Source: Bacteroidota bacterium
GTDB taxonomy: Bacteria > Bacteroidota > Bacteroidia > UBA8524
NCBI GenBank assembly: GCA_016124735.1
Contig: WGMZ01000037.1
Span: 1-57,486 of the forward strand
Direction: 5' to 3'
Length of the DNA stretch: 57,486 bases
Part shown: positions 2,524 through 17,007 of the stretch, piece by piece
Numbering within the stretch: position 1 is the stretch's first letter
Layout: the number at the start of each line of letters is the position of its first letter
Notes under the pieces: model-generated
Told to the model about the DNA's origin: nothing
The model's database searches: none
What the model saw: the letters and a program-made list of their open reading frames with translations, nothing else
Program-made: the position numbers and the translations under genes

Positions 2524-3249
2524 TCAGTCCTGCTTGGGCTTTTTCTCCTTTTTTTCTTTGGCTTCAGCTTCGTGGTGTGCACTTATTTGAAACCCAAGTG
2601 GCTGTTTGGTGGTGTGAAAACCCGACGAATAACTGGCAATAGCCTGTTGTTCCACGGAAATTAAACCTACCAAATCAAAGGGCGGAACCATCAAATCAAA
2701 GTTCAGGCAAAACAGGGTGGCTTCTTCGATGATATTGTTGATGTATTTTTCATTCATCACCAAATGTTCGAAGTCATTGTATAAAAATCCCAGCGGCCTC
2801 CTGCCATCAATAAAGAAATGCCCGTCTTTGTTCACAAAAAGCCTTGCTACCAGGACTCCCTGATCCTGATAACGCTGGTATTTCAGCGAATCGGATAAGA
2901 AATTATAAATCTGTATGAGTCCGCAGAATTCTCTTGTCTTGTCTTCCCGCACATAGCGCATTTTGTGAATGAAATGTGAGGAATCGAAATCAAATACATT
3001 CGTATGCATCATCATCACCAGGGTATCTCCGGCAAACTGCATATGCGCCTCAAATTTGCCTTCCTCCCGATATTCAATTTCGAGTTTGTCGTTGAAGCCA
3101 TTGACCTGGTCTTTCAGGTTATATTCATAACCACGTAAAACTTTTTTGAATTCATTCAAAACCTTCAGAGTCTGTTCATATGCCTCTTGTTTTGCGCTCG
3201 ATTTTGTTTCCAGCAATTCAACGATCTCCTGGATTTTTGTTTTAGCCAT
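2524..3249 (-). CDS. Conserved protein of unknown function (241 aa)
   Basis: This is a cytoplasmic-looking protein without signal peptide or membrane segment. The first 50 residues are a predicted amphipathic helix or coiled coil (TKIQEIVELLETKSSAKQEA...), the middle is a mixed alpha/beta domain rich in aromatic residues, and the tail is Lys/Glu-rich (EAEAKEKKEKKPKQD). I do not recognise a named domain; its look is that of a Bacteroidota core hypothetical. It follows proS with only 9 bases between them, so it may be co-transcribed, but a TAATTTCG box sits exactly 4 nt before its ATG (3254-3261), suggesting its own leaderless transcript. Its stop is one base from the stop of the convergent polyprenyl synthase. 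Confidence 0.7.
   Translation of the reverse strand: MAKTKIQEIVELLETKSSAKQEAYEQTLKVLNEFKKVLRGYEYNLKDQVNGFNDKLEIEYREEGKFEAHMQFAGDTLVMMMHTNVFDFDSSHFIHKMRYVREDKTREFCGLIQIYNFLSDSLKYQRYQDQGVLVARLFVNKDGHFFIDGRRPLGFLYNDFEHLVMNEKYINNIIEEATLFCLNFDLMVPPFDLVGLISVEQQAIASYSSGFHTTKQPLGFQISAHHEAEAKEKKEKKPKQD
2526..2544 (+). terminator. Possible weak terminator inside the end of the convergent gene
   Basis: AGTCC (2526-2530) can pair with GGGCT (2536-2540) and is followed by a short T run (2540-2544). It lies inside the last codons of the opposite-strand gene. The stem is only 5 bp with one G-T pair. Confidence 0.35.
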
Positions 3250-3253
3250 AAAT

Positions 3254-3261
3254 CGAAATTA
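3254..3261 (-). promoter_or_regulatory. -7 box (TAATTTCG) inside the end of proS
   Basis: The minus strand reads TAATTTCG-ATTT-ATG(3249). One mismatch from TAnnTTTG, with 4-nt spacing to the start codon. It overlaps the last codons of proS. Confidence 0.4.
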
Positions 3262-4734
3262 ATACGCGCGGGCGAAAAGTACACGACGTGAAGACGGATT
3301 CCCTGTAAGAATGCATTTACCGGCCTCCTCTTTCGCATCCAATGGAATGCAGCGAATAGTCGCTTTCGTTAATTCCTTAATCTTCTCTTCTGTTTCAGAT
3401 GTTCCGTCCCAATGGGCACTGACAAATCCTGCTCTCCCGTCTAAAATCTTCTGGAACTCCTCAAAGCTATCGGCTCGGGTGATGGACTCATCTCTAAAAT
3501 CCAAAGCTTTTTGATAAATGTTTTCCTGGATTGCGACCAGCAAATGTTCTACTTTATTCGCGAGATCTGCCAACTCCAGCACTTCTTTTTCTTTGGTATC
3601 TCTTCGCGCAACTTCGACGGTTCCATTCTCCAGGTCGCGCGGGCCCATTGCAATACGCACGGGCACACCTTTCAATTCATATTCGGCAAATTTCCATCCG
3701 GGTTTATGCGTGTCTCTGTTGTCATATTTCACGGATATACCTTTGCCCTCGAGTGCCTTTTTTATTTCTCCGGCTTTTTCAGTCAGAGCATTGAGTTGCT
3801 CCTCGTTTTTATAAATTGGAACTATCACCACCTGAATTGGCGCCAATTTCGGAGGAAGAACCAATCCCTCGTCGTCACTATGGGCCATAATCAATGCGCC
3901 CATTAATCGGGTTGACACACCCCAGGAAGTCGCCCATACGTATTCCAACTTTCCTTCTTTACTTGTGAACTTAACGTCAAAAGCTTTGGCAAAATTCTGT
4001 CCGAGAAAATGGCTTGTACCCATTTGCAACGCCTTCCCGTCTTGCATCATGCCTTCAATACAATAGGTGTCAATTGCCCCGGCAAAGCGTTCGTTTTCAG
4101 ATTTAACCCCACGGATGACTGGAACAGCCATTACTTTTTCTGCAAAATCCGCATAGACTTCAAGCATTTGCTTTGTTTCAGCAACAGCTTCCTCTGCGGT
4201 GGCATGCGCCGTGTGCCCTTCCTGCCAAAGAAATTCTGCAGTTCTGAGAAACAAACGGGTACGCATTTCCCAACGCATCACATTGGCCCACTGGTTCAAT
4301 AAAATGGGCAAGTCCCTATACGATTGAATCCAGTTTTTATAGGTGTTCCATATAATGGTTTCAGAAGTTGGTCGAATAATCAATTCTTCCTCAAGACGTG
4401 CTTCAGGGTCCACAACCACTTCACTTCCATCTTCTGAGTTTTTCAAACGGTAATGTGTAACCACAGCACATTCTTTGGCAAACCCTTCCACGTGTTTGGC
4501 TTCCTTACTTAAAAAGGATTTCGGAATCAAAAGTGGAAAATATGCGTTGCTGTGCCCGGTTTCTTTGAATCGCCGATCCAGCTCCTGCTGCATTTTCTCC
4601 CAAATAGCATATCCATACGGTTTGATAACCATACAACCACGAACCGCACTATGCTCTGCGAGATCTGCGTTCTTAACCAGGTTATTGTACCATTCTGAAT
4701 AGTCTTCGCTCCGTTTTACCTTCTTATTTTCCAT
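3259..4734 (-). CDS. proS: Prolyl-tRNA synthetase, archaeal/eukaryotic-type
   Basis: This 491-residue class II synthetase charges tRNA-Pro. Motif 2 (the [16 protein letters not shown] segment followed by [20 protein letters not shown]) and motif 3 ([21 protein letters not shown]) are clear, followed by an anticodon-binding domain ([11 protein letters not shown] onward) and the extra C-terminal domain ending in Tyr (RVLFARAY). There is no large editing insertion between motifs 2 and 3, which is the shorter archaeal/eukaryotic type seen throughout Bacteroidota. An upstream in-frame start at 4845 would add 37 residues, but that stretch reads through the terminator of the upstream gene (4800-4821) and the -7 box at 4762-4769, so ATG 4734 ([16 protein letters not shown]) is taken. 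Confidence 0.95.
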
Positions 4735-4761
4735 CGGGAAATGTGTTTCACTTTGAATGCG

Positions 4762-4769
4762 CAAAAATA
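4762..4769 (-). promoter_or_regulatory. -7 box (TATTTTTG) of proS
   Basis: An exact TAnnTTTG match on the minus strand, about 27 nt upstream of the chosen start at 4734. Confidence 0.5.
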
Positions 4770-4799
4770 GCCAAGATGGATGAAGAATGAAGAGAACAT

Positions 4800-4821
4800 A
4801 AAAAAAGGGGCTACCAGCCCC
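4800..4821 (-). terminator. Rho-independent terminator of the small secreted protein gene
   Basis: On the minus strand GGGGCT (4821-4816), loop GGT, AGCCCC (4812-4807), then seven T (4806-4800). It begins 26 nt past the stop at 4848. Its presence rules out the upstream start of proS. Confidence 0.8.
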
Positions 4822-4847
4822 TTCATACATAGGTACATTGCCCATAA

Positions 4848-5261
4848 TTAATCATAAAAGCGATAGGTATAGCTGTCGGAGCACTGGATGCCCTTTTTAG
4901 ACCATTCCATCGTAGCTCCGCAGGATTCTCCGTAAATACTGCTGTAGCCGAGATCTACCACCACATACATATACGTTTTAGAACTCATGGTGCATTTGTA
5001 ATAACCGTCCACATATACATCGACACAGTAACTCGACCAGTTTTCCAGTTTCAGATCACAGGTTGTTGTTCCCCTTGTTTTAACTTTTTCGTCTACTTTG
5101 TCCTCCGTTGGTTTTTTGCTTTTAATGTTTGGATTTTCACCCCGCGAAGGAGCGATTTTTTGCGCTTTAAGTTCCACGACCTGGTCGGGACTTACCACTT
5201 GCGCCTGTGAAAAGGTTCCCATTCCAAGCACAAAGGCGAATAAAAAGATTGCTTTTTTCAT
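4848..5261 (-). CDS. Small secreted cysteine-containing protein, possible metacaspase substrate
   Basis: The 137-residue product has a clear signal peptide ([20 protein letters not shown], cleavage near residue 20). Residues 21-63 are a charged, low-complexity, probably unfolded stretch; residues 64-137 form a compact domain with five Cys (68, 79, 90, 114, 127) and many Tyr, likely an all-beta disulfide-containing fold. Two SRG/TRG tripeptides (39-41 and 62-64) bracket the unfolded part; the second sits exactly at the start of the compact domain. The same tripeptides recur in the metacaspase just upstream (5296-7332), 34 bases away and likely in the same operon. I infer that this may be a pro-protein matured after Arg by that protease. 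I recognise no named domain; the role of the mature part is unknown. Confidence 0.7.
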
Positions 5262-5295
5262 TTTGAATTGATTTTAATAGTTATAACGGTTCTTG

Positions 5296-7332
5296 TTATT
5301 TGATTTTGAATAATAGCGTTGTGATATGCGCCAGATCGCTGGGCACCTGGACCTCTTCGGTTTCATCTTCCAGGCCTCTGCTGTTTTCCAGATAGCTCTT
5401 CTGCACCAATTTTTCCAAAGGATTATTTGACGGGGAAGCTTCTCCGCGACTTAATACCACATTTCTTAAATCCAATGGTTCCAGACTTGATATCAACTTA
5501 AACGTTTCTGTACCATAAGGAGGGGTGATGGTATATATCCTATCTATTTCAAGGGTTTCTCCCGGGCGTATTTTAAATTCCGCCGAAGGCTCATTTTTTC
5601 TTGGAATTACAACCGCTACCTCATTATCTGAGGTGATATCTATAAGCGTAAAATAAGCCACATCATTACCTGTATTTTTTATTTGAATTTTAAAATGGTC
5701 TCCGCTGTCCAATTCTATCATACCATTGACCATTTTGCTTCCGATGCTGTCCCTGCCCTTTTCCACAAGCCGTGTTTTCTTATATCTGCCTTCCCCGGTA
5801 GTTTGCCATTCCACTTCGGTAATAGGAATCAGGTGTATCTCCAGACTTATTTCCGGGTTTTGGGTATTCAACTCACGTAGAAATTGAGCCTGAGTGTACT
5901 GCAGCAGGGTTCTAACAACTTTGCTGGAAACAAGTTCCGTATTTGCCAAAATTGATTCGGTCATAATAACCTCATTGTTATTGGTCACTACTTCCAGCAT
6001 CTCTGCTCCACGTGTTTTCTGAGCACTTTTTGCAATTACTATTTGAGCCGCACGGTTTGTCACTTCAATAATGTTTTGATAGGGCTGTATATTCTTTTGA
6101 AGAGAATAAAGTAAACTGCTATCATCTACCACTTGCAAATCCACACGTATTTTCAATCCCTCATAGTTTTGAGAAATCAGGTATACAAAGCCCTTTCTTA
6201 TGACTTCAGGATCTAATTCTTTTTCCCACAAAACATCACAATTAATCAGATTTGCATTGGCTATCAATCCCCGAGAGAGTGGTTCGGATTTAGAAATATC
6301 TTCTATTCCCGCAGGGTACAATGCCACCTTCGATTTATTGTACAGTCCTGATAAAGTTCCGGCATTAAGAATACTCGTTTTCCCATCAATAACCTGGCTG
6401 TTTAAAAAGTAGGCAGGTTTATTGACCCCATGTCCTCCAAAAATTACCTGGTTTACGGCCCCTTCTATTCTTGGTGTTTGTCTGGGAGCAAGTACGCTCA
6501 TCTCAATCCTCACCTGGTCAAATACTTCCTGATAAGTAGAAGACTTGGAAACGTTCAGTAAAATCTTACTTAGAGCAAAACTGAGAGAGCCAACCGAATT
6601 TCCTTGTTCATCGTAAGTTTCGTAATTAAGTTGATCTGCACTGGCTCCACTAAAAAGGACCATAGGTGCCAGGTCCTGTTCCCCACTCCCCCTTGATTTT
6701 ACTTCAGTGTCATAGGTTGTCGAGTCTCTACCTTGTTTGCCTTTCCAGTCTGGCGGTCCCATAAAAATATCCGTACCTCTTGCCGGGGCCATTCCCGCAC
6801 CACGGGTTGCAGTACCTGAATGGCACGCATCAAATATGACTGTCAAACTGCCGCTACTTCCCAATTTTAAACGAAGCTCTCCCAATAATAATTCGAGTTC
6901 ATCATCACTCAAATGACGTTCACCCTCGTATTCATTTTTAACAAATTTTATAGGCGCATCAAATGGAACGATTGTTTCATCTCTCCCATCCAGCTCGTCG
7001 CCGCTTAAATCGCGCATTTGTTGTCCATGGCCGGAATAATGAAACACGATGATATCCCCCTGATTTGCATCTCGGGTCAATTTTTTTAATCCTTCTATGA
7101 TTCCCTTTTTAGTGGCAAGACTGTCTCTGAGTATCAAAATATTTTCATCTTCAAAAAGATGATGATGTAGTGCATTCACAATTAAGGGCACGTCTTTATC
7201 CGAGGAAATTTTAGGCCATCCACCCGAACGAGGATAGTCACCAACAGCGACGATCAAGCCTTTTTTCTCAGCTCCTGCATAAGATTGCAGGCAACATAAA
7301 ACAGCTAGTAAGAGAATAAAATTTTTCATCAT
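5296..7332 (-). CDS. Secreted metacaspase (peptidase C14) with DUF4384-like C-terminal domain
   Basis: The 678-residue protein has a signal peptide (cleavage near residue 20) followed directly by a caspase p20 domain (about 24-290). The catalytic dyad is intact: His102 in HYSGHGQQ and Cys170 in DACHSG. The acidic loop DELDGRDETIVPFD is typical of metacaspases, which cut after Arg or Lys rather than Asp. The middle is of unknown fold; residues about 540-625 (GDHFKIQIKNTGNDVAYF, later PRKNEPSAEFKIRPGE) resemble DUF4384, a usual partner domain. Seven Arg-Gly pairs occur, six of them as SRG or TRG, more than expected by chance, suggesting self-processing sites. It is probably exported to the periplasm or cell surface. 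Start is the first of two Met (7332 or 7329). A perfect palindrome lies 65 bp upstream (7397-7414). The gene downstream may be its substrate. Confidence 0.85.
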   Translation of the reverse strand: MMKNFILLLAVLCCLQSYAGAEKKGLIVAVGDYPRSGGWPKISSDKDVPLIVNALHHHLFEDENILILRDSLATKKGIIEGLKKLTRDANQGDIIVFHYSGHGQQMRDLSGDELDGRDETIVPFDAPIKFVKNEYEGERHLSDDELELLLGELRLKLGSSGSLTVIFDACHSGTATRGAGMAPARGTDIFMGPPDWKGKQGRDSTTYDTEVKSRGSGEQDLAPMVLFSGASADQLNYETYDEQGNSVGSLSFALSKILLNVSKSSTYQEVFDQVRIEMSVLAPRQTPRIEGAVNQVIFGGHGVNKPAYFLNSQVIDGKTSILNAGTLSGLYNKSKVALYPAGIEDISKSEPLSRGLIANANLINCDVLWEKELDPEVIRKGFVYLISQNYEGLKIRVDLQVVDDSSLLYSLQKNIQPYQNIIEVTNRAAQIVIAKSAQKTRGAEMLEVVTNNNEVIMTESILANTELVSSKVVRTLLQYTQAQFLRELNTQNPEISLEIHLIPITEVEWQTTGEGRYKKTRLVEKGRDSIGSKMVNGMIELDSGDHFKIQIKNTGNDVAYFTLIDITSDNEVAVVIPRKNEPSAEFKIRPGETLEIDRIYTITPPYGTETFKLISSLEPLDLRNVVLSRGEASPSNNPLEKLVQKSYLENSRGLEDETEEVQVPSDLAHITTLLFKIK

Positions 7333-7396
7333 CCGTCTGCATTTGATCTTTAATCCCTTTCAAATTTTAAAGGTAAATCAAATGAAAACGACAGCT

Positions 7397-7414
7397 ATAC
7401 CGAATGTTCGGTAT
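7397..7414. promoter_or_regulatory. 18-bp palindrome, candidate repressor operator
   Basis: ATACCGAA-TG-TTCGGTAT: two perfect 8-nt arms around a 2-nt centre, in the 99-bp gap between pheS and the metacaspase gene. The form is like operators of TetR-family repressors. A few T follow on the plus strand, so a hairpin is an alternative, but no plus-strand gene precedes it. Confidence 0.45.
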
Positions 7415-7431
7415 TTTAAGTGCTTATATTT

Positions 7432-8451
7432 CTAGTCCTTAGATCGGAATTGAGAAAGAAAACGAACGTCGTTGTCGAAAAATGTTCTGAGATCTTTTAC
7501 ATCGTATTTCAACATGGCTATTCTTTCCACGCCAATGCCAAAAGCATAACCTGAATAGGTGGTAGAATCGATTCCACAGGCATCCAGAACAGCCGGATCT
7601 ACCATTCCGCAACCCATTACTTCTAACCAGCCGGTGTACTTGCAGACATTGCATCCTTTTCCATTGCATAGGAAGCAAGTAACATCCATTTCAGCACTCG
7701 GCTCGGTGAAAGGAAAATAAGAAGGACGTAACCGAATTCGTGCATCTTTTCCAAAAAATTCATGGGCGAAATAAAGCAGCAATTGCTTCATATCGGCCAT
7801 GCTCACATCTTTATCAATGTACAAGCCTTCCACCTGATGGAAGAAACAATTAGCCCGTGCAGAAACCGCTTCATTTCTATACACTCTGCCCGGAGCAATA
7901 ATACGAATGGGGAGTTCGCCTTTTTCCATCGATCTCACCTGTACACTGGAGGTATGGGTTCGGAGTGCAAAATCTTCGTCAATAAAGAAAGTATCCTGCA
8001 TGTCTCGCGCAGGATGATCTTCGGGAAAGTTTAATGCAGAGAAATTGTGCCAATCATCTTCCATCTCAGGACCATTCTCCACAACAAATCCAGCACGTAT
8101 AAAAATTTCCTGCATCTCATCCAGAACAATTTGAAGAGGATGCCTGGAACCCGCAGGAAGATTTCTGAGTGGTAAGCTGGGATCCGTCTGATCTCCTGAA
8201 TCGCTTTCCTTAGTTGCCCCGATATTTTCTTTCAGTGCATTGAACTTTGTTTCTGCTAAGCTCTTAAGTTGATTGATTTTTGCACCGTACTTTTTCTTTT
8301 CTTCCGGAGCGACCTGACGGAACATTTCAAAAAGCTCGCTGATTTTCCCTTTTCTGGATAACAATTCCAAGCGAAAATTTTCCAATTCCTTTTCATTGGT
8401 TATTGAGCTGTTCTCGATAACTGATTCTACTTCTTTTATCAGCGATTCCAT
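7432..8451 (-). CDS. pheS: Phenylalanyl-tRNA synthetase alpha subunit
   Basis: The 339-residue alpha subunit of the class II PheRS heterotetramer. An N-terminal coiled-coil arm (residues about 1-85) is followed by the catalytic core: motif 2 (SAEMDVTCFLCNGKGCNVC includes the usual cysteine insert; preceding RIIAPGRVYRNEAVSARA), the GCGMVDPAVL segment, and motif 3 (GYAFGIGVERIAMLKY). ATG 8451 (MESLIKEVESV) is the family start; an upstream in-frame start at 8502 would include the -7 box TAGATTTG at 8457-8464 and is rejected. Only 5 nt separate that box from the ATG, so the mRNA should be almost leaderless. It starts next to the proposed origin (8509-8838). pheT is not in the window. Confidence 0.95.
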   Translation of the reverse strand: MESLIKEVESVIENSSITNEKELENFRLELLSRKGKISELFEMFRQVAPEEKKKYGAKINQLKSLAETKFNALKENIGATKESDSGDQTDPSLPLRNLPAGSRHPLQIVLDEMQEIFIRAGFVVENGPEMEDDWHNFSALNFPEDHPARDMQDTFFIDEDFALRTHTSSVQVRSMEKGELPIRIIAPGRVYRNEAVSARANCFFHQVEGLYIDKDVSMADMKQLLLYFAHEFFGKDARIRLRPSYFPFTEPSAEMDVTCFLCNGKGCNVCKYTGWLEVMGCGMVDPAVLDACGIDSTTYSGYAFGIGVERIAMLKYDVKDLRTFFDNDVRFLSQFRSKD

Positions 8452-8456
8452 CGGTA

Positions 8457-8464
8457 CAAATCTA
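8457..8464 (-). promoter_or_regulatory. -7 box (TAGATTTG) of pheS
   Basis: An exact TAnnTTTG match on the minus strand followed by TACCG and the pheS ATG at 8451. Confidence 0.55.
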
Positions 8465-8508
8465 GACCAATTCAAAGAAAAGACCAGAGTGGCGTTAGCC
8501 ACAAAACC

Positions 8509-8838
8509 AATTATTATTAAATTTTAAATAAAAGGTATTCTTATTAATAGATGCCTGTGAATTTGTAGAAAACATTTGGCAATGCCTACTTGATTTTTTT
8601 GTTATTATGAAATTGTTAACAATCGTAATGGTTCGTTTATCCTTGATTAATGCGGTTTTTCGTTTCTTTTATTCACAGCTGTGAATTGGAATCCACATGC
8701 ATTTGGTATAAAATTCACTTTCTGGATTTGCGTTGGTTTCATGTAGAAAGAGTGGGTGTTTATACACTGCTGTTAACATGGAAAATCAGATGCTTTCCAT
8801 TCGAATCATTTGTACACATCATTACCGCATTTTCCACA
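8509..8838. other. oriC: Candidate chromosomal replication origin (oriC)
   Basis: The 389-bp gap between pheS and the next gene holds no plausible protein (short frames of 64 and 72 codons lack any signal). It has a strongly AT-rich left part (8509-8550), a perfect 12-nt palindrome ATTGTTAACAAT (8612-8623), and then a row of DnaA-box-like 9-mers on the plus strand: TTATTCACA (8669-8677, exact TTATNCACA), TTATACACT (8760-8768, one mismatch), TTGTACACA (8810-8818, one mismatch) and TTTTCCACA (8830-8838, fits TTWTNCACA). Weaker copies are at 8556-8564, 8680-8688 and 8689-8697. An unwinding element followed by DnaA boxes is the usual layout of bacterial origins. mnmG and a parS cluster 3.4-4.3 kb away support an origin-proximal site. 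This is an inference; dnaA is not in the window. Confidence 0.5.
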
Positions 8839-8840
8839 GC

Positions 8841-10409
8841 TTAATCCTCTTTGTTGTTAAGAAGGAAATCTCCGATGGTCCAGCCTCCGCGAATAGTGAG
8901 CTTTGTGGGATTTACATAGACTTTAGAAACGTTTCGTTTAAAAGGAATTAACTGATCCGGCTGTTTGAGTGAATCAATTTTAATGAGTCGTACATTGTAT
9001 GTGCCAGGGGTAATATTCGAAAAATAACACGAATCTTCAGTTGAATAGATGAAATATTCTGGTTCTTTACTTAGGTCTTTAAGAAGCTCTATTCTGTATA
9101 ATTGCTTGGCTGAATTTGAATACAATACCGCAGCATTTCCAAAAGCATTGCTTGTACTGGTTTTAAAATGAATAGTATCGGAATGGGATAATTGTCTGTC
9201 GAAAAATACGACAGCGGAGTCGGGAAAAATTAGTGTATAGTCTGTTTCATGCTCCAGGTCGGCACGGATGCCAATTGAATAAGAAAGCATGGTGATTTTG
9301 AGAGAAGACACAGGAATGCTATCATTTTTGAATAATTGGATGAATCCTGGACGATAGGTTAAAAGACTGTTTATGGATTGAATAAAGAAAGTGTCGTTAG
9401 GAGCCAGAGTATTGGTTCTGTTTGGATTGAGTTGAGTACTGTTCGCTTTGATTGGAAACTGAACGGTAATGGTATCAGTTATGGAATCTTTATTCATTAA
9501 ATAATATGTGGCCAATGTATCGGATGATTCTTTGATGAAATCTTGGATAAGAAGGGTATCGCTGTGAATGAATTTGGTAAAAAGCCTTTGCGTTTTATCT
9601 TTTGACTTTGTTTTAGATTGAATAGAGAAGAAGTAAGAGTTGGGTATTTTGACAGGTAGAATAAATGTGTTTTCAGAAATACCTTGCGGTGAAGAATAAA
9701 TCAGTGGCCTGTTCAGAATATTTTGGCCCGTTCGGATTTTTACAGAATCATTTGGTCTTTGTTTATGGTCGAGATAACCCATGTCTTCGCCTAAATCAGG
9801 AATATTATTATTGTTGATGTCTTTAAAGGCATAAATGGTATACAGGCTATCCGGGATCGATGGAATTTTGAAGGATCCATTCTCCAGGGTTTTGGTGATA
9901 TACAAGGGAAAAAGTACCGAATCAGGGTAATCCAAAATATTGGGATGAAATAGTGCTACAGTAAATGCTTTTTGTGGTTCATTGGTGTAATTATTCAAGA
10001 CCAATCCACTGAATGATAGGGTATCTATTTGATTTCCAGTAGAAAAGGAAAACTGAAGAGCGGGTAATACGTTTTTTTCGTTGATATCCTGAATGCCATC
10101 AAACAATTGAACCGTGTAAGTGGCATTTGTTTGAAGTGGTGCCTTGAATTTGATTCTGAGATTATGTTTAATAATATCAATGTCCGGTGCTTTTACAGGA
10201 GGCGGACTAATCAAAATTGCATTCGGATCTTTTATTTCAAAGTATTCATCAAAATGGATTAGAATTTCTGAACCCTGAAAATTGGTTGTATTGCTGTCTG
10301 GCTCAATTAGAGTCGCTAAGGGAGGGGTTTCGTCTTTTTCTCCACCCTGTGGGTGCTCAACAACTGCACAAGACACGAGAAGAAGTAAGAAAGGGAGGAT
10401 TTTAGTCAT
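8841..10409 (-). CDS. Ig-like domain lipoprotein
   Basis: The 522-residue protein has a lipoprotein signal (LLLLVSC, Cys14) followed by the short acidic linker and the PQGGEKDETPP segment that precede a bacterial Ig-like (Big_5/SbsA-type) domain at about residues 30-110 (DETPPLATLIEPDSNTTN..., FSFSTGNQIDTLSF). The remainder is beta-rich with a Cna-B/transthyretin-like stretch (GSFKIPSIPDSLYTIYAF followed by DINNNNIPDLGED). This arrangement is a widespread Bacteroidota surface lipoprotein of unknown function. Its start overlaps the mnmG stop by 4 bases, so it is translated from the mnmG transcript. Confidence 0.75.
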   Translation of the reverse strand: MTKILPFLLLLVSCAVVEHPQGGEKDETPPLATLIEPDSNTTNFQGSEILIHFDEYFEIKDPNAILISPPPVKAPDIDIIKHNLRIKFKAPLQTNATYTVQLFDGIQDINEKNVLPALQFSFSTGNQIDTLSFSGLVLNNYTNEPQKAFTVALFHPNILDYPDSVLFPLYITKTLENGSFKIPSIPDSLYTIYAFKDINNNNIPDLGEDMGYLDHKQRPNDSVKIRTGQNILNRPLIYSSPQGISENTFILPVKIPNSYFFSIQSKTKSKDKTQRLFTKFIHSDTLLIQDFIKESSDTLATYYLMNKDSITDTITVQFPIKANSTQLNPNRTNTLAPNDTFFIQSINSLLTYRPGFIQLFKNDSIPVSSLKITMLSYSIGIRADLEHETDYTLIFPDSAVVFFDRQLSHSDTIHFKTSTSNAFGNAAVLYSNSAKQLYRIELLKDLSKEPEYFIYSTEDSCYFSNITPGTYNVRLIKIDSLKQPDQLIPFKRNVSKVYVNPTKLTIRGGWTIGDFLLNNKED

Positions 10410-12268
10410 CGTCCGAAATGTACAAGTAAAACAGAAATATCAGCGGGTGAAACACCACTTATTCTGCTGGCTTGACCCAGGGTAGCAGGTTTTAGTTTAC
10501 TCAGTTTCTCTCTTGATTCTTTGCTCAAGGATGGAAGAGATTGGTAATTGAATTCTGAATGCAGTCGGATATGTTCGAGTTTTTGCATCTTATCGGCCAT
10601 TTCCTTTTCTTTCTCAATATACCCATCATATTTCATAAGAATTTCGGCTTGTAATTTGGCATCTTCTCTGGTTCCGGTAAGAATGGGGTCAGCGCTTGGT
10701 AGGCCCTGAAAATCATGGATATGCAATTGAGGTCGGCTGATAAGCTGAAAGAGCTTATAGTTTTGAGGAATAGTAGGAGTTTCTTTCGACTCAAGCATAG
10801 TATTTACTTCCATAGGAGTAATGGATGTTTTATGAAAGGCATCGATGATGGTTTGGGTTTGTTTAATTTTTTCCTGAACATTTTTCAAGCGTAGATCGGA
10901 GGCCAAACCAATGCGGTGACTTTTTTCAGTAAGACGTATATCCGCGTTATCCTGGCGCAGGAGAATGCGGTATTCCGCGCGTGAGGTGAACATTCGGTAG
11001 GGTTCTTCGGTACCTTTGTTTATCAAGTCATCGATCAATACGCCGATATAACCTTCTGAGCGGTCGATAATAAAAGGTTCCTTTTCATTAATTTTAAGAT
11101 GAGCGTTAATTCCTGCCATAATCCCCTGAGCTGCAGCCTCTTCATAACCAGTGGTTCCGTTTATTTGTCCGGCGAAGTACAGATTTTCAATTAGATGCGT
11201 TTCAAGTGTGGTTTTAAGCTGCGTAGGCTGAAAGAAATCGTATTCAATGGCATATCCTGGTCGGAACATTTTGGCATTTTCAAATCCGGGAATTTGTCGA
11301 AGAGCTTTTTGTTGAATGGCTTCAGGAAGGGAAGTAGAAAAGCCATTCACATATACTTCAACGGTATTCCATCCTTCGGGCTCAACGAATATTTGGTGAC
11401 GCTCACGTTCAGCAAAGCGATTGATTTTATCTTCGATGGATGGACAATATCGTGGACCGAGTCCTTGTATTCGTCCGGTATACATTGGTGAATCGTCAAA
11501 ACCCTCTTTTAGGGTTTCGTGCACCTTAGAATTGGTATAAGTGATGTAACAGCTTCTTTGTTTAGAGAGAGCTTGAGTATCCGTGTAGGAAAATTTATCC
11601 GGTTTTTCATCTCCTTTTTGTTCTTCCATTGCTTCCCAGTTCAAGGAACGCCCGTCGACCCTGGGGGGTGTTCCTGTCTTCATTCGTCCACTTTCGAATC
11701 CAAGAGAAACAAGTTGTTCGGTTATTCCAAAACTGGCAGCTTCTCCCATGCGCCCACCACCAAGTTGTTTTTGTCCAATATGTATGATTCCATTTAAGAA
11801 AGTTCCATTGGTAAGGATTACAGATTTAGAATAGAATTCTATTCCAATACCCGTTTTGACTCCATAAACCCTTTGATCTTTCACCAGAATTTCTTTGACC
11901 ATATCCTGCCAGAAGTCCAGATTGTCGGTTTGTTCCAGGGCCAATCTCCACTCACTGGAGAACAACCATCGATCGCTTTGAGCACGGGGACTCCACATGG
12001 CAGGACCTTTAGACCGATTCAACATACGAAATTGAATCATGGTTTTGTCTGTGATGATTCCGGAATAACCGCCTAAAGCATCTATTTCTCTGACTATTTG
12101 ACCCTTAGCAACTCCTCCCATAGCTGGATTACATGACATTTGAGCAATTGTGCCCATATTCATGGTAATAAGCAACACTTTGGAGCCTAAATTAGCCGCT
12201 GCTGCTGCTGCTTCGCACCCTGCGTGGCCTGCCCCAACTACGATAAGGTCATATTCTTGTCTATTCAT
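10406..12268 (-). CDS. mnmG: tRNA uridine-5-carboxymethylaminomethyl modification enzyme MnmG (GidA)
   Basis: The 620-residue FAD enzyme, with MnmE, installs the carboxymethylaminomethyl group on U34 of several tRNAs. The N-terminal FAD motif GAGHAGCEAAAAAANLG, the SCNPAMGGVAKGQ block, the GTPPRVDGRS segment and the C-terminal helical domain ending in SRISGVSPADISVLLVHFGR are all present, at normal length. Its ATG overlaps the end of ybeY by 8 bases, and the overlap carries a perfect parS 16-mer (12268-12283). mnmG lies near oriC in many bacteria, which agrees with the parS cluster and the proposed origin here. MnmE is not in the window. Confidence 0.97.
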   Translation of the reverse strand: MNRQEYDLIVVGAGHAGCEAAAAAANLGSKVLLITMNMGTIAQMSCNPAMGGVAKGQIVREIDALGGYSGIITDKTMIQFRMLNRSKGPAMWSPRAQSDRWLFSSEWRLALEQTDNLDFWQDMVKEILVKDQRVYGVKTGIGIEFYSKSVILTNGTFLNGIIHIGQKQLGGGRMGEAASFGITEQLVSLGFESGRMKTGTPPRVDGRSLNWEAMEEQKGDEKPDKFSYTDTQALSKQRSCYITYTNSKVHETLKEGFDDSPMYTGRIQGLGPRYCPSIEDKINRFAERERHQIFVEPEGWNTVEVYVNGFSTSLPEAIQQKALRQIPGFENAKMFRPGYAIEYDFFQPTQLKTTLETHLIENLYFAGQINGTTGYEEAAAQGIMAGINAHLKINEKEPFIIDRSEGYIGVLIDDLINKGTEEPYRMFTSRAEYRILLRQDNADIRLTEKSHRIGLASDLRLKNVQEKIKQTQTIIDAFHKTSITPMEVNTMLESKETPTIPQNYKLFQLISRPQLHIHDFQGLPSADPILTGTREDAKLQAEILMKYDGYIEKEKEMADKMQKLEHIRLHSEFNYQSLPSLSKESREKLSKLKPATLGQASRISGVSPADISVLLVHFGR

Positions 12269-12701
12269 GTTTCACGTGGAACATTTGATCGTAGATTTGA
12301 AGAGCCTTGTTTTCTTCAATACGCATCTGAGTTTGTTCCTCCTCTTTTTTATCGTTAAACCCGATAAGATGAAGCACACCGTGTGCCATAACACGCCGAA
12401 GTTCTACATCTGTTGGAACTGCAAATTTAATCGCATTTTCTTTGACCCGGTCGATGCTGATGAATAAATCACCATGAATGGTATTTCCCAGGTTATAATT
12501 GAATGTTATAATATCGGTATACGTATCGTGGTTCAATACCGATTGATTCATTTCCAGCAATTCTTCATCCGTTCGGAGGATGATGTTTACAGCTCCTGGT
12601 ATTTTTACATGAAGAAGAATTAATTCCTGCAGCCATTTTTTCAGCTGCCTTTTTTGTTTCACGTGGAACTTACTGTTCTCTTCGTGGATATAAATAGACA
12701 T
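12261..12701 (-). CDS. ybeY: Endoribonuclease YbeY (rRNA maturation factor)
   Basis: The 146-residue zinc endoribonuclease takes part in 16S rRNA 3'-end maturation and ribosome quality control. The metal-site motif reads HGVLHLIGFND: the first two His are present but the third ligand His of the usual HxxxHxxxxxH form is replaced by Asp, as I recall is usual in Bacteroidota homologues. The TDIITFNY segment before it is typical. Two parS sites lie in the gene (12268-12283 and 12655-12670), both read as Phe-His-Val-Lys in this frame. It follows the type B sorted protein gene by 5 bases and overlaps mnmG. Confidence 0.92.
   Translation of the reverse strand: MSIYIHEENSKFHVKQKRQLKKWLQELILLHVKIPGAVNIILRTDEELLEMNQSVLNHDTYTDIITFNYNLGNTIHGDLFISIDRVKENAIKFAVPTDVELRRVMAHGVLHLIGFNDKKEEEQTQMRIEENKALQIYDQMFHVKHE
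12268..12283. promoter_or_regulatory. parS: parS site 1 (ParB-binding), exact match
   Basis: TGTTTCACGTGGAACA, the exact reverse complement of the Bacillus subtilis parS sequence TGTTCCACGTGAAACA. It lies at the ybeY stop/mnmG start overlap. ParB binds such sites near the origin for chromosome segregation. Confidence 0.85.
12655..12670. promoter_or_regulatory. parS: parS site 2, 15 of 16 matches
   Basis: TGTTTCACGTGGAACT, differing from the perfect site only in the last base. It lies in the 5' part of ybeY. Confidence 0.75.
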
Positions 12702-12706
12702 GGGTA

Positions 12707-14467
12707 TTAGTAGAGTACGGTGAAATTTCCGGAGTATTGTGCTCTCTTTCCTGTGAGGAAGTAAACATCTGCAAGGTAAATAAAAACCGTTGTTTGGTAT
12801 GCGTTACCATTTGGGTCTAAACCATTCCAGCCATCGCTGAGTTTACCAGAATGAACTAATTGACCGTTTCGTCCGTATATTTTGAGGGTGCTTTGATCTG
12901 AATCAATGGATAAACCCACAGCACGGAAAGTATTGTTTATGCCTCTTACGGAGATTGCGTTTGGAAAATAGATACTTGGTGATTGAATGAAGCATTTAGG
13001 ATTGCTGTAGATGGTTTCTGAAAAACCGTAACTATTGGGGTTGTTTTCTTTGCTCAGGATTTGAAAACAGCGAATATTTAGATTTTCTTGGGTTATATGT
13101 TTGGAATAAAAGCTATCGCTCACGTTGTTTTCTAAAATGTTCCACGTGGAATACTTGCTTAAATTATCGCCAAGATGAATTTCAACAATGTCAATTCCTC
13201 CATCGAGATAATTGGGTTGGGTCCATTCGATGCTGTAATTGTCTGTTGATGTTTCAATCCCGGAAAGCACCACATTATAAGCCTCATTGCTGCGGTAATG
13301 TCTTCCACATCGATCAATCAATTCGTGAGCAAATTTGTAAGTTAACGTGTCGCTTGGTATTAAAACACGAAGAGGATATGGGTTATTATTAATGTCATCT
13401 TTCCAATAATATATTTGGTTGGTCTCTGTTTGTTGGTACACATAGATGCTATCAAAATTAACCGGATTATCGTATGTGCCATGTAATTCTACGGTATTGG
13501 GAGCTACCCAGCTTACGGCAGACAAATAATTTTTACTAATCTGAAAGGAATCCAGAGCTTGAAATTGAATGGGGATACTGCGTGAGCTTGCTCCATTATC
13601 GAGTCCGGCGCGGACAAAAACCTCGACTTTTTGGCCGCTTTTGATTCGTATTGAATAGGTGTTTTGACTACCTTGCAAAGTGGTGTCAATAAAATAATCC
13701 GCGCCATCAATACTCAGATATATTTGAAAATACGTGTTTCCATGTCCAATGTATGGGGTCCATGAAAGATCAATATCTCTTCCGCAGTTCTTTGATTTTC
13801 CCTGAATAAATGGAGCTGCATGGGGTTGGGAGATAACAGATTGATTATTGCAGGAGTCAAACGCGGTTAAGGTATAAAAATGTTGTCCGGTGAATGGGTC
13901 CAGATGAGTGTCGAGGTAGGAGGTTCCTTGGTATACACTGTCAAATTTGAAGTTGTTGTTATTTGTGTTTTCGTGTTCCCACAGATAATATCCGAATAAG
14001 TCAACGGCGTTATTTGGCGACCACGACAAGAAATAGCCATTGCTTACAGGATCATAACTAACAGAATCATATTCTGAACTATTTGGTTGGGTCAGATCAA
14101 TATATAAGGTATCGCTTTTAAATTCACTGTTATCACACAAATACCGATATATAAGTTGGTAGCTCCATTTTTCTGTTAGTACAGCGGCTCCTGCATGCAC
14201 AAAAGAATTTTGTGCGGCATTGGTTATAGTACCAATACTACTGAAAGCTGTAAAGTCGTTGGGCCTGGCGAAAACCTCAATTTCCTGAAACTTGGAACAA
14301 GGATCGGCACTAATATCCCAGAAAAGAATGATATCGGTATTATTCGATTTAATGCAAACCCGTTTAAAATTGGGTTGTGCAGTTAATTGTTCTGCCCCAA
14401 TCAATATGAGAATACACCCAAGAATAAGGTGTTTAGTTCTTACCGAAATCTCCGACAATAACGACAT
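12707..14467 (-). CDS. T9SS type B sorted surface protein with fibronectin-like repeats
   Basis: The 586-residue protein has an N-terminal signal peptide (TKHLILGCILILIGAEQLTAQ) and a chain of fibronectin-III-like beta domains (for example DSVSYDPVSNGYFLSWSPNN and NCGRDIDLSWTPYIG). The C-terminal 85 residues match the gliding-motility-associated, type B sorting domain: FPNAISVRGINNTF, LKIYGRNGQLVHSG, GWNGLDPNG and a final GNFTVLY. Such proteins are exported by the type IX system and held at the surface. The start ATG at 14467 overlaps the end of the M16 peptidase gene by 35 bases, so it is translated from the same mRNA. A parS site is embedded at 13138-13153. Confidence 0.85.
   Translation of the reverse strand: MSLLSEISVRTKHLILGCILILIGAEQLTAQPNFKRVCIKSNNTDIILFWDISADPCSKFQEIEVFARPNDFTAFSSIGTITNAAQNSFVHAGAAVLTEKWSYQLIYRYLCDNSEFKSDTLYIDLTQPNSSEYDSVSYDPVSNGYFLSWSPNNAVDLFGYYLWEHENTNNNNFKFDSVYQGTSYLDTHLDPFTGQHFYTLTAFDSCNNQSVISQPHAAPFIQGKSKNCGRDIDLSWTPYIGHGNTYFQIYLSIDGADYFIDTTLQGSQNTYSIRIKSGQKVEVFVRAGLDNGASSRSIPIQFQALDSFQISKNYLSAVSWVAPNTVELHGTYDNPVNFDSIYVYQQTETNQIYYWKDDINNNPYPLRVLIPSDTLTYKFAHELIDRCGRHYRSNEAYNVVLSGIETSTDNYSIEWTQPNYLDGGIDIVEIHLGDNLSKYSTWNILENNVSDSFYSKHITQENLNIRCFQILSKENNPNSYGFSETIYSNPKCFIQSPSIYFPNAISVRGINNTFRAVGLSIDSDQSTLKIYGRNGQLVHSGKLSDGWNGLDPNGNAYQTTVFIYLADVYFLTGKRAQYSGNFTVLY
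13138..13153. promoter_or_regulatory. parS: parS site 3, one mismatch
   Basis: TGTTCCACGTGGAATA, one mismatch (T for C at position 15) from TGTTNCACGTGNAACA. It lies inside the type B T9SS protein gene in a different reading frame from the ybeY copies (Ser-Thr-Trp-Asn), so the constraint is on DNA and not on protein. Confidence 0.7.
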
Positions 14468-15701
14468 TTAAATTATTGGTGTTCAGATAAATGCTTGCAA
14501 TGGAATAAAGTTCTTCCTTAGTTATGTTTTTAACCTGGCGAACATAATTATGAAAATAGGATTCCTTCAATTCATATTCCATGATTGTTTTATAACGATC
14601 AACGCGGGCCAGGCTTCCGTCAAAACTTCGTTGGATATTACCCAGCATATAGTTTTTAACAGTGGTGAGCTCTTCTTCCCGAATTGTTTCTGTAAATAAA
14701 CGTGTCATTTCATGCATTATTTCATGCATGCAGTCGAGTTTTGCTTCGTTTTTAACATCGGAACGAATAATTAATAATGAAGAATCATGCAAATGCAGTG
14801 TGTTAGATCCGATTCCGTATGTATAACCTTTGTCTTCCCGAATGTTCTTCATAAGCCTTGAACCAAAATAGCCCCCAAATAAGGTGATCAGTACTGACCA
14901 TGCGGGATAGTCGGGATGCTTTCTTGTAGGAGCAGGCATGCCCGCATAAATGCTTGCCTGAACAGCGTCGTTGTGCTGATGATGAATAGAGAACACCTCT
15001 TTTTTTAATAAAGACAGCGTTTCTGGCAAATTGGTTGTTTCTCTGGTGTTATTTCCAAATAAATTTATAGATTCAGTGTTTATCGGGGAGTTCACCAAAA
15101 TGAAATCAAGGGAAGGCAATAGGCGATTTTCATAATAGCCCTGGACCTGATCAACGGATAACTTTAAATAATCCTCTTGAGTCATATAACGCCCATACGG
15201 ATGTTCCAATCCAAAGTATGTACTATTGAATATTCGCTTCGATAAAAAGGCGGTTTTTTGTTCGTTTACCTTTAAAGTCTCGATCGATTTACGGCGGTAC
15301 AATTCAAATTCATCATTTGGAATGCGCACATTTTCAAGCACTTCGTGTAAAAACGACAAGATTGGATCGACATTGTTTTGAATACAAAAGACATGTAAAG
15401 AAACAAACAGGAACCCGGATTCTATATCTACATAAGCTCCGTAGAAGTCTAATTTCTCCTGAATTTCATAGGCGCTAAATAAATCCGTGCCGCTCAATAA
15501 CAGTTTGCTCAAAGCAGAAACCAGCCCTTTTTCGGTTGAATACAAGCTGCCACAACGAAAGAAAAATGAGACACGAACGAGCTCTTCATGTTCCTTAGAA
15601 AAGAACACGTGCACTCCATTTTTGAGTGTAATATTATCAAATGAAAAGGGAGGAAGTGTTTCGGGAAGCCTTGTTGCGGGCGCAATACTTCTATTGATCA
15701 T
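14433..15701 (-). CDS. M16 family peptidase subunit lacking the zinc motif
   Basis: The 422-residue protein has the two-domain M16 fold, but the position of the HxxEH motif (after FFFRCGSLYSTEKG) reads VSALSKLLLSG, so it cannot bind zinc. The substrate-binding R/Y pair of the C-terminal half is kept (FGSRLMKNIREDKGYTYG). This is the usual make-up of the non-catalytic partner of a heterodimeric M16B peptidase. The ATG overlaps the stop of the catalytic partner gene (15698-16936) in an ATGA junction, consistent with translational coupling and a 1:1 complex. No signal peptide is visible, so a cytoplasmic or membrane-associated role is likely. Confidence 0.88.
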   Translation of the reverse strand: MINRSIAPATRLPETLPPFSFDNITLKNGVHVFFSKEHEELVRVSFFFRCGSLYSTEKGLVSALSKLLLSGTDLFSAYEIQEKLDFYGAYVDIESGFLFVSLHVFCIQNNVDPILSFLHEVLENVRIPNDEFELYRRKSIETLKVNEQKTAFLSKRIFNSTYFGLEHPYGRYMTQEDYLKLSVDQVQGYYENRLLPSLDFILVNSPINTESINLFGNNTRETTNLPETLSLLKKEVFSIHHQHNDAVQASIYAGMPAPTRKHPDYPAWSVLITLFGGYFGSRLMKNIREDKGYTYGIGSNTLHLHDSSLLIIRSDVKNEAKLDCMHEIMHEMTRLFTETIREEELTTVKNYMLGNIQRSFDGSLARVDRYKTIMEYELKESYFHNYVRQVKNITKEELYSIASIYLNTNNLNVVIVGDFGKN

Positions 15702-16936
15702 ACTTTTGCCTGGTAGATAAGGGTGGAGGATTGATTTCTATTGAATAACTTAATCGCTGTGTTCTGAATAGATTCCGGGGATGTTCCCTGGTAGGAAGAC
15801 ACTTCGTAATTGATTTGATCAGTATTTCCCAGATGAGTGAAAAGAGCCAGATTCATGGCTTTATTTAAAACCTCTAATTCGTTATAATTCAGAACTGTAA
15901 GCTTCTTATTGACGACTTTTTCCCACTCTCTTTGTGAAATACTTTCTCTTTTTAATTCTTCCAGAACTTTCCAAATGGCTAGTTCCGCATCTTCTACTTT
16001 TGTTTCTGGAAATATTCTTCCACTGATAACAAACAAACCTGGGTCCAAACTATCGGTTGAATAGGCGGCAATGTCTGCAAATAAGCGATTCTCTTTTACC
16101 AAACGCTGGTGAAGACGAGAGGAATCGGAAGACCCTAATATGTCTGATAATAAATCAACGGAGTAATAAGATGAGTCTTTGCGGGGAGGACAATGGAATC
16201 CGATACTGATCGAGGTCATGGGCACATCACGTGATATTTCCAGGCGCCTCGCCTCTGTTTGTGCGGGCTCTTGCGGATAAATATTAAGATTCACAAGTCC
16301 AGCGGGAATATCTCCAAACCACCGGTTAACCAGCGTCTTACATGTTTCCAAACTGACACTTCCTCCGATAACCAGAATGGCATTGCTAGGATTGTAATAT
16401 TGAGAATAAAACGTATCCAAATCCGTGAGTTGCACCTTTTCAATATGGGCCAGCTCCTTGCCGATGGTTGCCCAATTGTAAGGGTGAACTTTATAGCATA
16501 GTGGACGAAATTCAAGCCACATATCTCCATAAGGCTGATTTAAATAGCGTTGTTTGAACTCTTCCATTACCACACCTTGCTGAACCTGCAATGTCTTAGG
16601 CGTCAGGTTCAATTGAAACATTCGGTCAGATTCGAGCCAGAGCGCTGTTTCAAGATTGACAGCCGGGAGGGTGACATAGTAATTTGTTATATCATTACTG
16701 GTAAAGGCATTGTTTTCTCCGGAAGCCTGTTGCAAAGGCTCATCATAGGAGGGGGCGTTTTTTGATCCACCAAACATCAGATGTTCGAAAAGATGTGCCA
16801 TTCCCGTTAGTTCGGGGTTTTCATCCCGGGCACCGACATTGTATAAAATATTAACAACGGCCAGGGGTGTTTTTCCGTCAAAATGATGAATTACACGAAG
16901 ACCGTTTTTGAGTTGAAATGAATCGAAAGATATCAT
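15698..16936 (-). CDS. M16 family zinc metallopeptidase (catalytic subunit)
   Basis: This 412-residue pitrilysin-like peptidase keeps the inverted zinc motif HLFEH (His48, Glu51, His52 in MAHLFEHLMFGG) and the downstream Glu-containing ETALWLESDRMF segment. The C-terminal half lacks the strong R/Y motif, which the partner gene supplies. An in-frame start at 17002 would add 22 residues, but that stretch holds the -7-like box at 16941-16948; ATG 16936 (MISFDSFQLKNGLRV) fits the family start. It is divergent from the pseudouridine synthase gene and heads the leftward run M16A-M16B-T9SS protein-ybeY-mnmG-lipoprotein. Confidence 0.92.
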   Translation of the reverse strand: MISFDSFQLKNGLRVIHHFDGKTPLAVVNILYNVGARDENPELTGMAHLFEHLMFGGSKNAPSYDEPLQQASGENNAFTSNDITNYYVTLPAVNLETALWLESDRMFQLNLTPKTLQVQQGVVMEEFKQRYLNQPYGDMWLEFRPLCYKVHPYNWATIGKELAHIEKVQLTDLDTFYSQYYNPSNAILVIGGSVSLETCKTLVNRWFGDIPAGLVNLNIYPQEPAQTEARRLEISRDVPMTSISIGFHCPPRKDSSYYSVDLLSDILGSSDSSRLHQRLVKENRLFADIAAYSTDSLDPGLFVISGRIFPETKVEDAELAIWKVLEELKRESISQREWEKVVNKKLTVLNYNELEVLNKAMNLALFTHLGNTDQINYEVSSYQGTSPESIQNTAIKLFNRNQSSTLIYQAKV

Positions 16937-16940
16937 GTTG

Positions 16941-16948
16941 CGAAAATA
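16941..16948 (-). promoter_or_regulatory. -7 box (TATTTTCG) of the M16 operon
   Basis: The minus strand reads TATTTTCG-CAAC-ATG(16936), one mismatch from TAnnTTTG with 4-nt spacing. Confidence 0.45.
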
Positions 16949-17007
16949 CAATTCCCCAGAGGCTTTTGCTCCCGAATAAAAAATGCTGCGCATCGCTTGC
17001 ATTGTCG

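Follow-up and report, generated by a model that had tools for sequence, protein, structure and literature searches.

The 389-bp gene-free gap at positions 8452-8840 of the window (i.e., the whole stretch of 57,486 nucleotides analyzed here) is predicted, with high confidence, to be the DnaA-dependent chromosomal replication origin of this uncultured Bacteroidota bacterium. The elements by which an oriC is recognized are found together at this locus: an intergenic cluster of DnaA boxes, a skew minimum, an AT-rich unwinding element and conservation in the related genomes G003 and G001, along with a DnaA protein whose box-binding domain (domain IV) retains the GRDHSTV signature. A switch in skew, a cluster of boxes, a weak duplex and conservation are all observed here, and these support the oriC that had originally been proposed from the letters of the sequence. 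The placement matters because a genome's replication map takes the origin as its reference point: coverage-based growth-rate estimates, gene-dosage effects and strand bias depend on it.

The gap and the genes around it are as follows:

8452..8840, no strand assigned: candidate oriC, intergenic, with pheS to its left and the Big_5 lipoprotein gene to its right (open reading frames, skew, box enrichment, conservation in three relatives)
7432..8451, minus strand: pheS, phenylalanyl-tRNA synthetase alpha subunit, left neighbor (Pfam PF01409, PF02912)
8841..10409, minus strand: lipoprotein with a Big_5 Ig-like domain, right neighbor (Pfam PF13205)
10406..12268, minus strand: mnmG (gidA) (Pfam PF01134)
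12261..12701, minus strand: ybeY (Pfam PF02130)

By the open reading frame calls, the gap is bounded by the ATG of pheS at 8451 on the minus strand and by the stop of the lipoprotein gene at 8841. Its length of 389 bp and its AT-rich left side (GC 0.18 at 8511-8570) agree with the earlier description, and the open reading frame lists are consistent with its being the largest gap in the window. The functional stretch, which had been given as 8509-8838, probably starts somewhat earlier, near 8502. All genes from 2524 to 17002 are carried by the minus strand; to the left of pheS these include a caspase-domain (Peptidase_C14) protein with a DUF4384 domain at 5296-7332, and then a small secreted-looking protein at 4848-5261. 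An Rfam search of the whole window returned zero matches, and a structured RNA of known type is thereby ruled out for the gap.

The GC skew offers several pointers to this locus. First, cumulative G-C over the window is lowest at position 8473, on the edge of the gap. Second, with 5 kb taken on each side, the skew steps from -0.138 to +0.102 at 8500. This is the largest step among 2,426 tested positions, the best other stretch reaching 0.161, in a sample of 1.195 Mb that amounts to 38% of the 3.11-Mb genome (53 unordered contigs, sampled mostly at contig starts and ends) and thus gives local steps rather than a full-chromosome curve. Together, the window minimum and this step answer in favor of the locus the skew check named with the original prediction. 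Third, the fourfold degenerate sites flip, from G238/C283 on the left to G288/C158 on the right (to 17 kb; Fisher P 5e-9). Gene direction cannot cause this flip because the genes on both sides share the minus strand, and an artefact of that kind is thereby ruled out. When pheS is taken alone, its fourfold skew is slightly positive, which counts against the origin reading.

The DnaA boxes form an array on the right side of the gap:

8669..8677, plus strand: DnaA box TTATTCACA, exact; overlaps the palindrome TTCACAGCTGTGAA at 8672-8685; aligned counterpart in G003 CCACAGCTGT
8760..8768, plus strand: DnaA box TTATACACT; aligned with TTATACACC in G003 and TTGTACACA in G001
8810..8818, plus strand: DnaA box TTGTACACA; aligned with TTGTCCACA in G003 and G001
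8830..8838, plus strand: DnaA box TTTTCCACA; identical in G003

Thus, the four box-like 9-mers in one orientation are present as had been claimed, with starts at 8669, 8760, 8810 and 8830 on the plus strand, and span 170 bp; a fifth, one-mismatch match, TTAGCCACA, lies at 8495 within a hairpin near pheS. Across the whole window, matches to TTATNCACA with at most one mismatch show no enrichment (59 observed vs 57.8 expected), and single boxes therefore carry little meaning; the genome-wide count of TTWTNCACA is likewise not clearly enriched (243 vs 219 for the reversed control). The gap itself contains 5 matches, as against 0.85 in its dinucleotide shuffles (P ~0.001), and its four same-strand boxes within 200 bp are the sole such cluster in the 1.195 Mb sampled. 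The shuffles, the genome sample and the relatives considered below rule out that this crowding arose by chance. The dnaA gene, which sits on another contig, C33, is ruled out as the site of the origin: the 3.5 kb around it contain 2 box matches, below expectation and without a cluster, and the skew there does not flip, being positive or near zero throughout. Hence, a better box cluster, which had been named as a result that would tell against the gap, was found neither at dnaA nor elsewhere in the sampled sequence.

The left side of the gap contains a further set of elements:

8502..8552, no strand assigned: probable DNA-unwinding element, very AT-rich, the weakest duplex in the gap (nearest-neighbor stability)
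8542..8550, plus strand: possible DnaA-trio run, 3'-GAT AAT TAT-5', spaced 13 nt from the box on the minus strand (sequence compared with the criteria of PMC8287927)
8555..8572, minus strand: box pair facing the AT-rich stretch, TTTTCTACA at 8564-8572 and then AAATTCACA at 8556-8564 (three-genome profile)
8590..8621, plus strand: conserved T-rich block TTGATTTTTTTGTTATTATGAAATTGTTAACA (alignment of seven gaps)
8489..8502, minus strand: conserved hairpin GTGGC-GTTA-GCCAC upstream of pheS (in G000, G001 and G003)

In nearest-neighbor stability, 8502-8552 ranks second among all 50-bp positions of the window, and a duplex as weak is found at just 0.005% of the sampled genome positions. Bordering it and directed at it is the minus-strand element TTTTCTACAAATTCACA (8556-8572), which the original prediction did not include. 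Its two boxes are degenerate, with about two mismatches each, and overlap by one base. A profile of this 18-bp element built from G000, G001 and G003 picked out the homologous gap of G002 as the first of 457,514 positions, scoring 18.8 bits where the runner-up scored 14.0. The corresponding profile of the T-rich block placed the G002 gap 12th, a weaker held-out result than that of the box pair, and the block was accordingly rejected as a strong marker.

The perfect hairpin (GTGGCGTTAGCCAC) lies upstream of pheS, some 37 bp from its start, overlaps the match TTAGCCACA at 8495, is identical in sequence in G001 and G003, and its 12-mer has one exact copy in this genome. It is likelier to belong to the 5' UTR or promoter of pheS than to the origin. 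This conserved hairpin, together with the fact that DnaA can also act as a transcription factor, would fit a different reading, in which the whole gap serves to regulate pheS, the 9-mers are transcription-control sites for DnaA or another factor, and the true origin is elsewhere nearby. We consider this very improbable: the plus-strand boxes are 218-387 bp from the pheS start, i.e., beyond the usual promoter, and promoter control would leave unexplained both the parS sites and the fact that the largest sampled skew step is at the gap.

We then compared the locus across related genomes. The order is represented by five genomes, among which G003 belongs to the same genus, G002 to another and G001 to a third. 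The order ybeY-mnmG-lipoprotein-gap-pheS is retained in G003 and G002; G001 retains these genes, and its assembly is interrupted on the side of the gap that faces pheS. The conservation of boxes that had been suggested as a check was found: in the alignment, the boxes of G003 are in register with those of the window, and the G001 gap has a box array that includes TTGTACACA and TTGTCCACA. Box counts exceed those of shuffles in both of these genomes, and the gaps of six relatives together contain 29 matches against 5.6 in shuffles. The fourfold skew flip also recurs in G003 and in the metagenome-assembled genome (MAG) contig L006. G002 retains the gene order, the parS sites and the box pair; it has few boxes and no plus-strand array, its skew is weak overall, and its contig of 229 kb shows no flip at the gap. 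A rearrangement or a moved origin could possibly account for this mismatch. Separately, contig C6 of G002 has a weak local skew minimum at 125-130 kb (L167, L152), about 30 kb from the parS sites, where no strong box cluster was seen; it might be a displaced origin or noise. The MAG contig L031 has the gene order and no fourfold skew flip.

At greater distance, the lipoprotein gene is directly upstream of pheS in the same direction solely in L006, L007 and L031 among 80 distant pheS loci, most of which have few boxes upstream, ruling out a phylum-wide origin linked to pheS. The gaps upstream of pheS in these three more distant MAGs carry several copies of the motif GTCGCATT / AATGCGAC, which the inverted pair AATGCGGT at 8649 and ACCGCATT at 8824 of the window resembles.

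The missing skew flip in G002 and L031, the unclear genome-wide enrichment of boxes and a cluster scan that covered 38% of the genome could be read in favor of an origin that lies within a few kb of the gap or in an unsampled contig, with the cluster being a DnaA-titrating (datA-like) site or a chance occurrence. To this we give very little credence, because the skew minimum, the weak duplex and the box cluster coincide within ~370 bp and the boxes are conserved in register. It is a real, if less than even, prospect that origins in several genera of Bacteroidota share this inner layout, in which a box pair on the minus strand (TTWTCTACAAAT.CACA) points toward the melting region and is accompanied by a T-rich block and a plus-strand array, all set among ybeY-mnmG-lipoprotein-pheS. 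If so, this layout could be a signature for locating origins in uncultured Bacteroidota.

On the far side of the lipoprotein gene are three parS-like sites:

12268..12283, plus strand: parS-like site TGTTTCACGTGGAACA (16-mer match; parS near mnmG in G001, G002 and G003)
12655..12670, plus strand: parS-like site TGTTTCACGTGGAACT (16-mer match; parS near mnmG in relatives)
13138..13153, plus strand: parS-like site TGTTCCACGTGGAATA (16-mer match; same site in G003)

The sites at 12268, 12655 and 13138 bear out the parS cluster that had been placed 3.4-4.3 kb from the gap; the same distance had been given for mnmG, and it holds for the mnmG start (3.4 kb), the near end of the gene being just 1.6 kb away. 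The first two sites are in coding sequence: 12268-12283 straddles the place where ybeY ends and mnmG starts (peptide MFHVKHE), and 12655-12670 falls within the 5' portion of ybeY (peptide KFHVKQ). parS sites occur near mnmG in all four of the genomes that hold mnmG, and this genome has one parB, on contig C6. Judging from sequence, the parS cluster and this chromosomal parB constitute a putative origin-proximal parS/ParB segregation locus.

With the gap as the origin, initiation might proceed as follows. DnaA would bind both the array on the plus strand (8669-8838) and the box pair on the minus strand (8555-8572), and from the pair it could extend leftward onto the AT-rich 8502-8552, which would melt. 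Two forks would then depart in opposite directions from the gap, making initiation bidirectional, and ParB at the parS sites 3.4-4.3 kb off might subsequently separate the two new origins.

The Escherichia coli oriC lies between gidA/mnmG and mioC, away from dnaA, and the gidA-mioC placement is also seen in Yersinia. The locus described here likewise has its array of DnaA boxes close to mnmG and apart from dnaA, but differs in its flanking genes; that both are near mnmG may reflect common descent or be coincidental.

In the Bacillus subtilis oriC, the basal unwinding system (BUS; PMC6669920, PMC8287927) is defined by a box pair, a spacer of at most 16 nt and at least three DnaA-trios (NAN) (PMC8287927). 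The window resembles it in having two boxes next to AT-rich DNA, with a spacer of 13 nt and three trio-like triplets, GAT first; it differs in that these boxes are degenerate and share one base. By inspection, three triplets are found in the window (GAT AAT TAT) and in G001, but not in G003 and G002, and such runs are common by chance in AT-rich DNA. We therefore do not claim a BUS: the trio run was dropped as a proof of one, being non-diagnostic, and, as its conservation is missing in some relatives, it is at most compatible with such a system.

Closer to this lineage, oriCs predicted with Ori-Finder 2022 and GC skew are placed beside mnmG in Mariniflexile litorale (Flavobacteriaceae), there not at dnaA (PMC11278836), and in Algorimicrobium (PMC12843772). 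The present candidate resembles these Flavobacteriaceae predictions in its nearness to mnmG and differs in its flanking genes, pheS and the Big_5 lipoprotein gene, the latter of which separates it from mnmG. In the open-licence literature we found no paper on the gap or its inner layout, and the accessible portions of the two reports give neither box-level anatomy nor cross-genome conservation, in contrast to the window's candidate origin. As mnmG-adjacent predicted origins have been reported for Bacteroidota, the gap is very probably a new example of an ordinary bacterial origin rather than a new type of system; what it brings to Bacteroidota origins, placed near mnmG by software in the papers found, is independent lines of evidence and a conserved inner layout.
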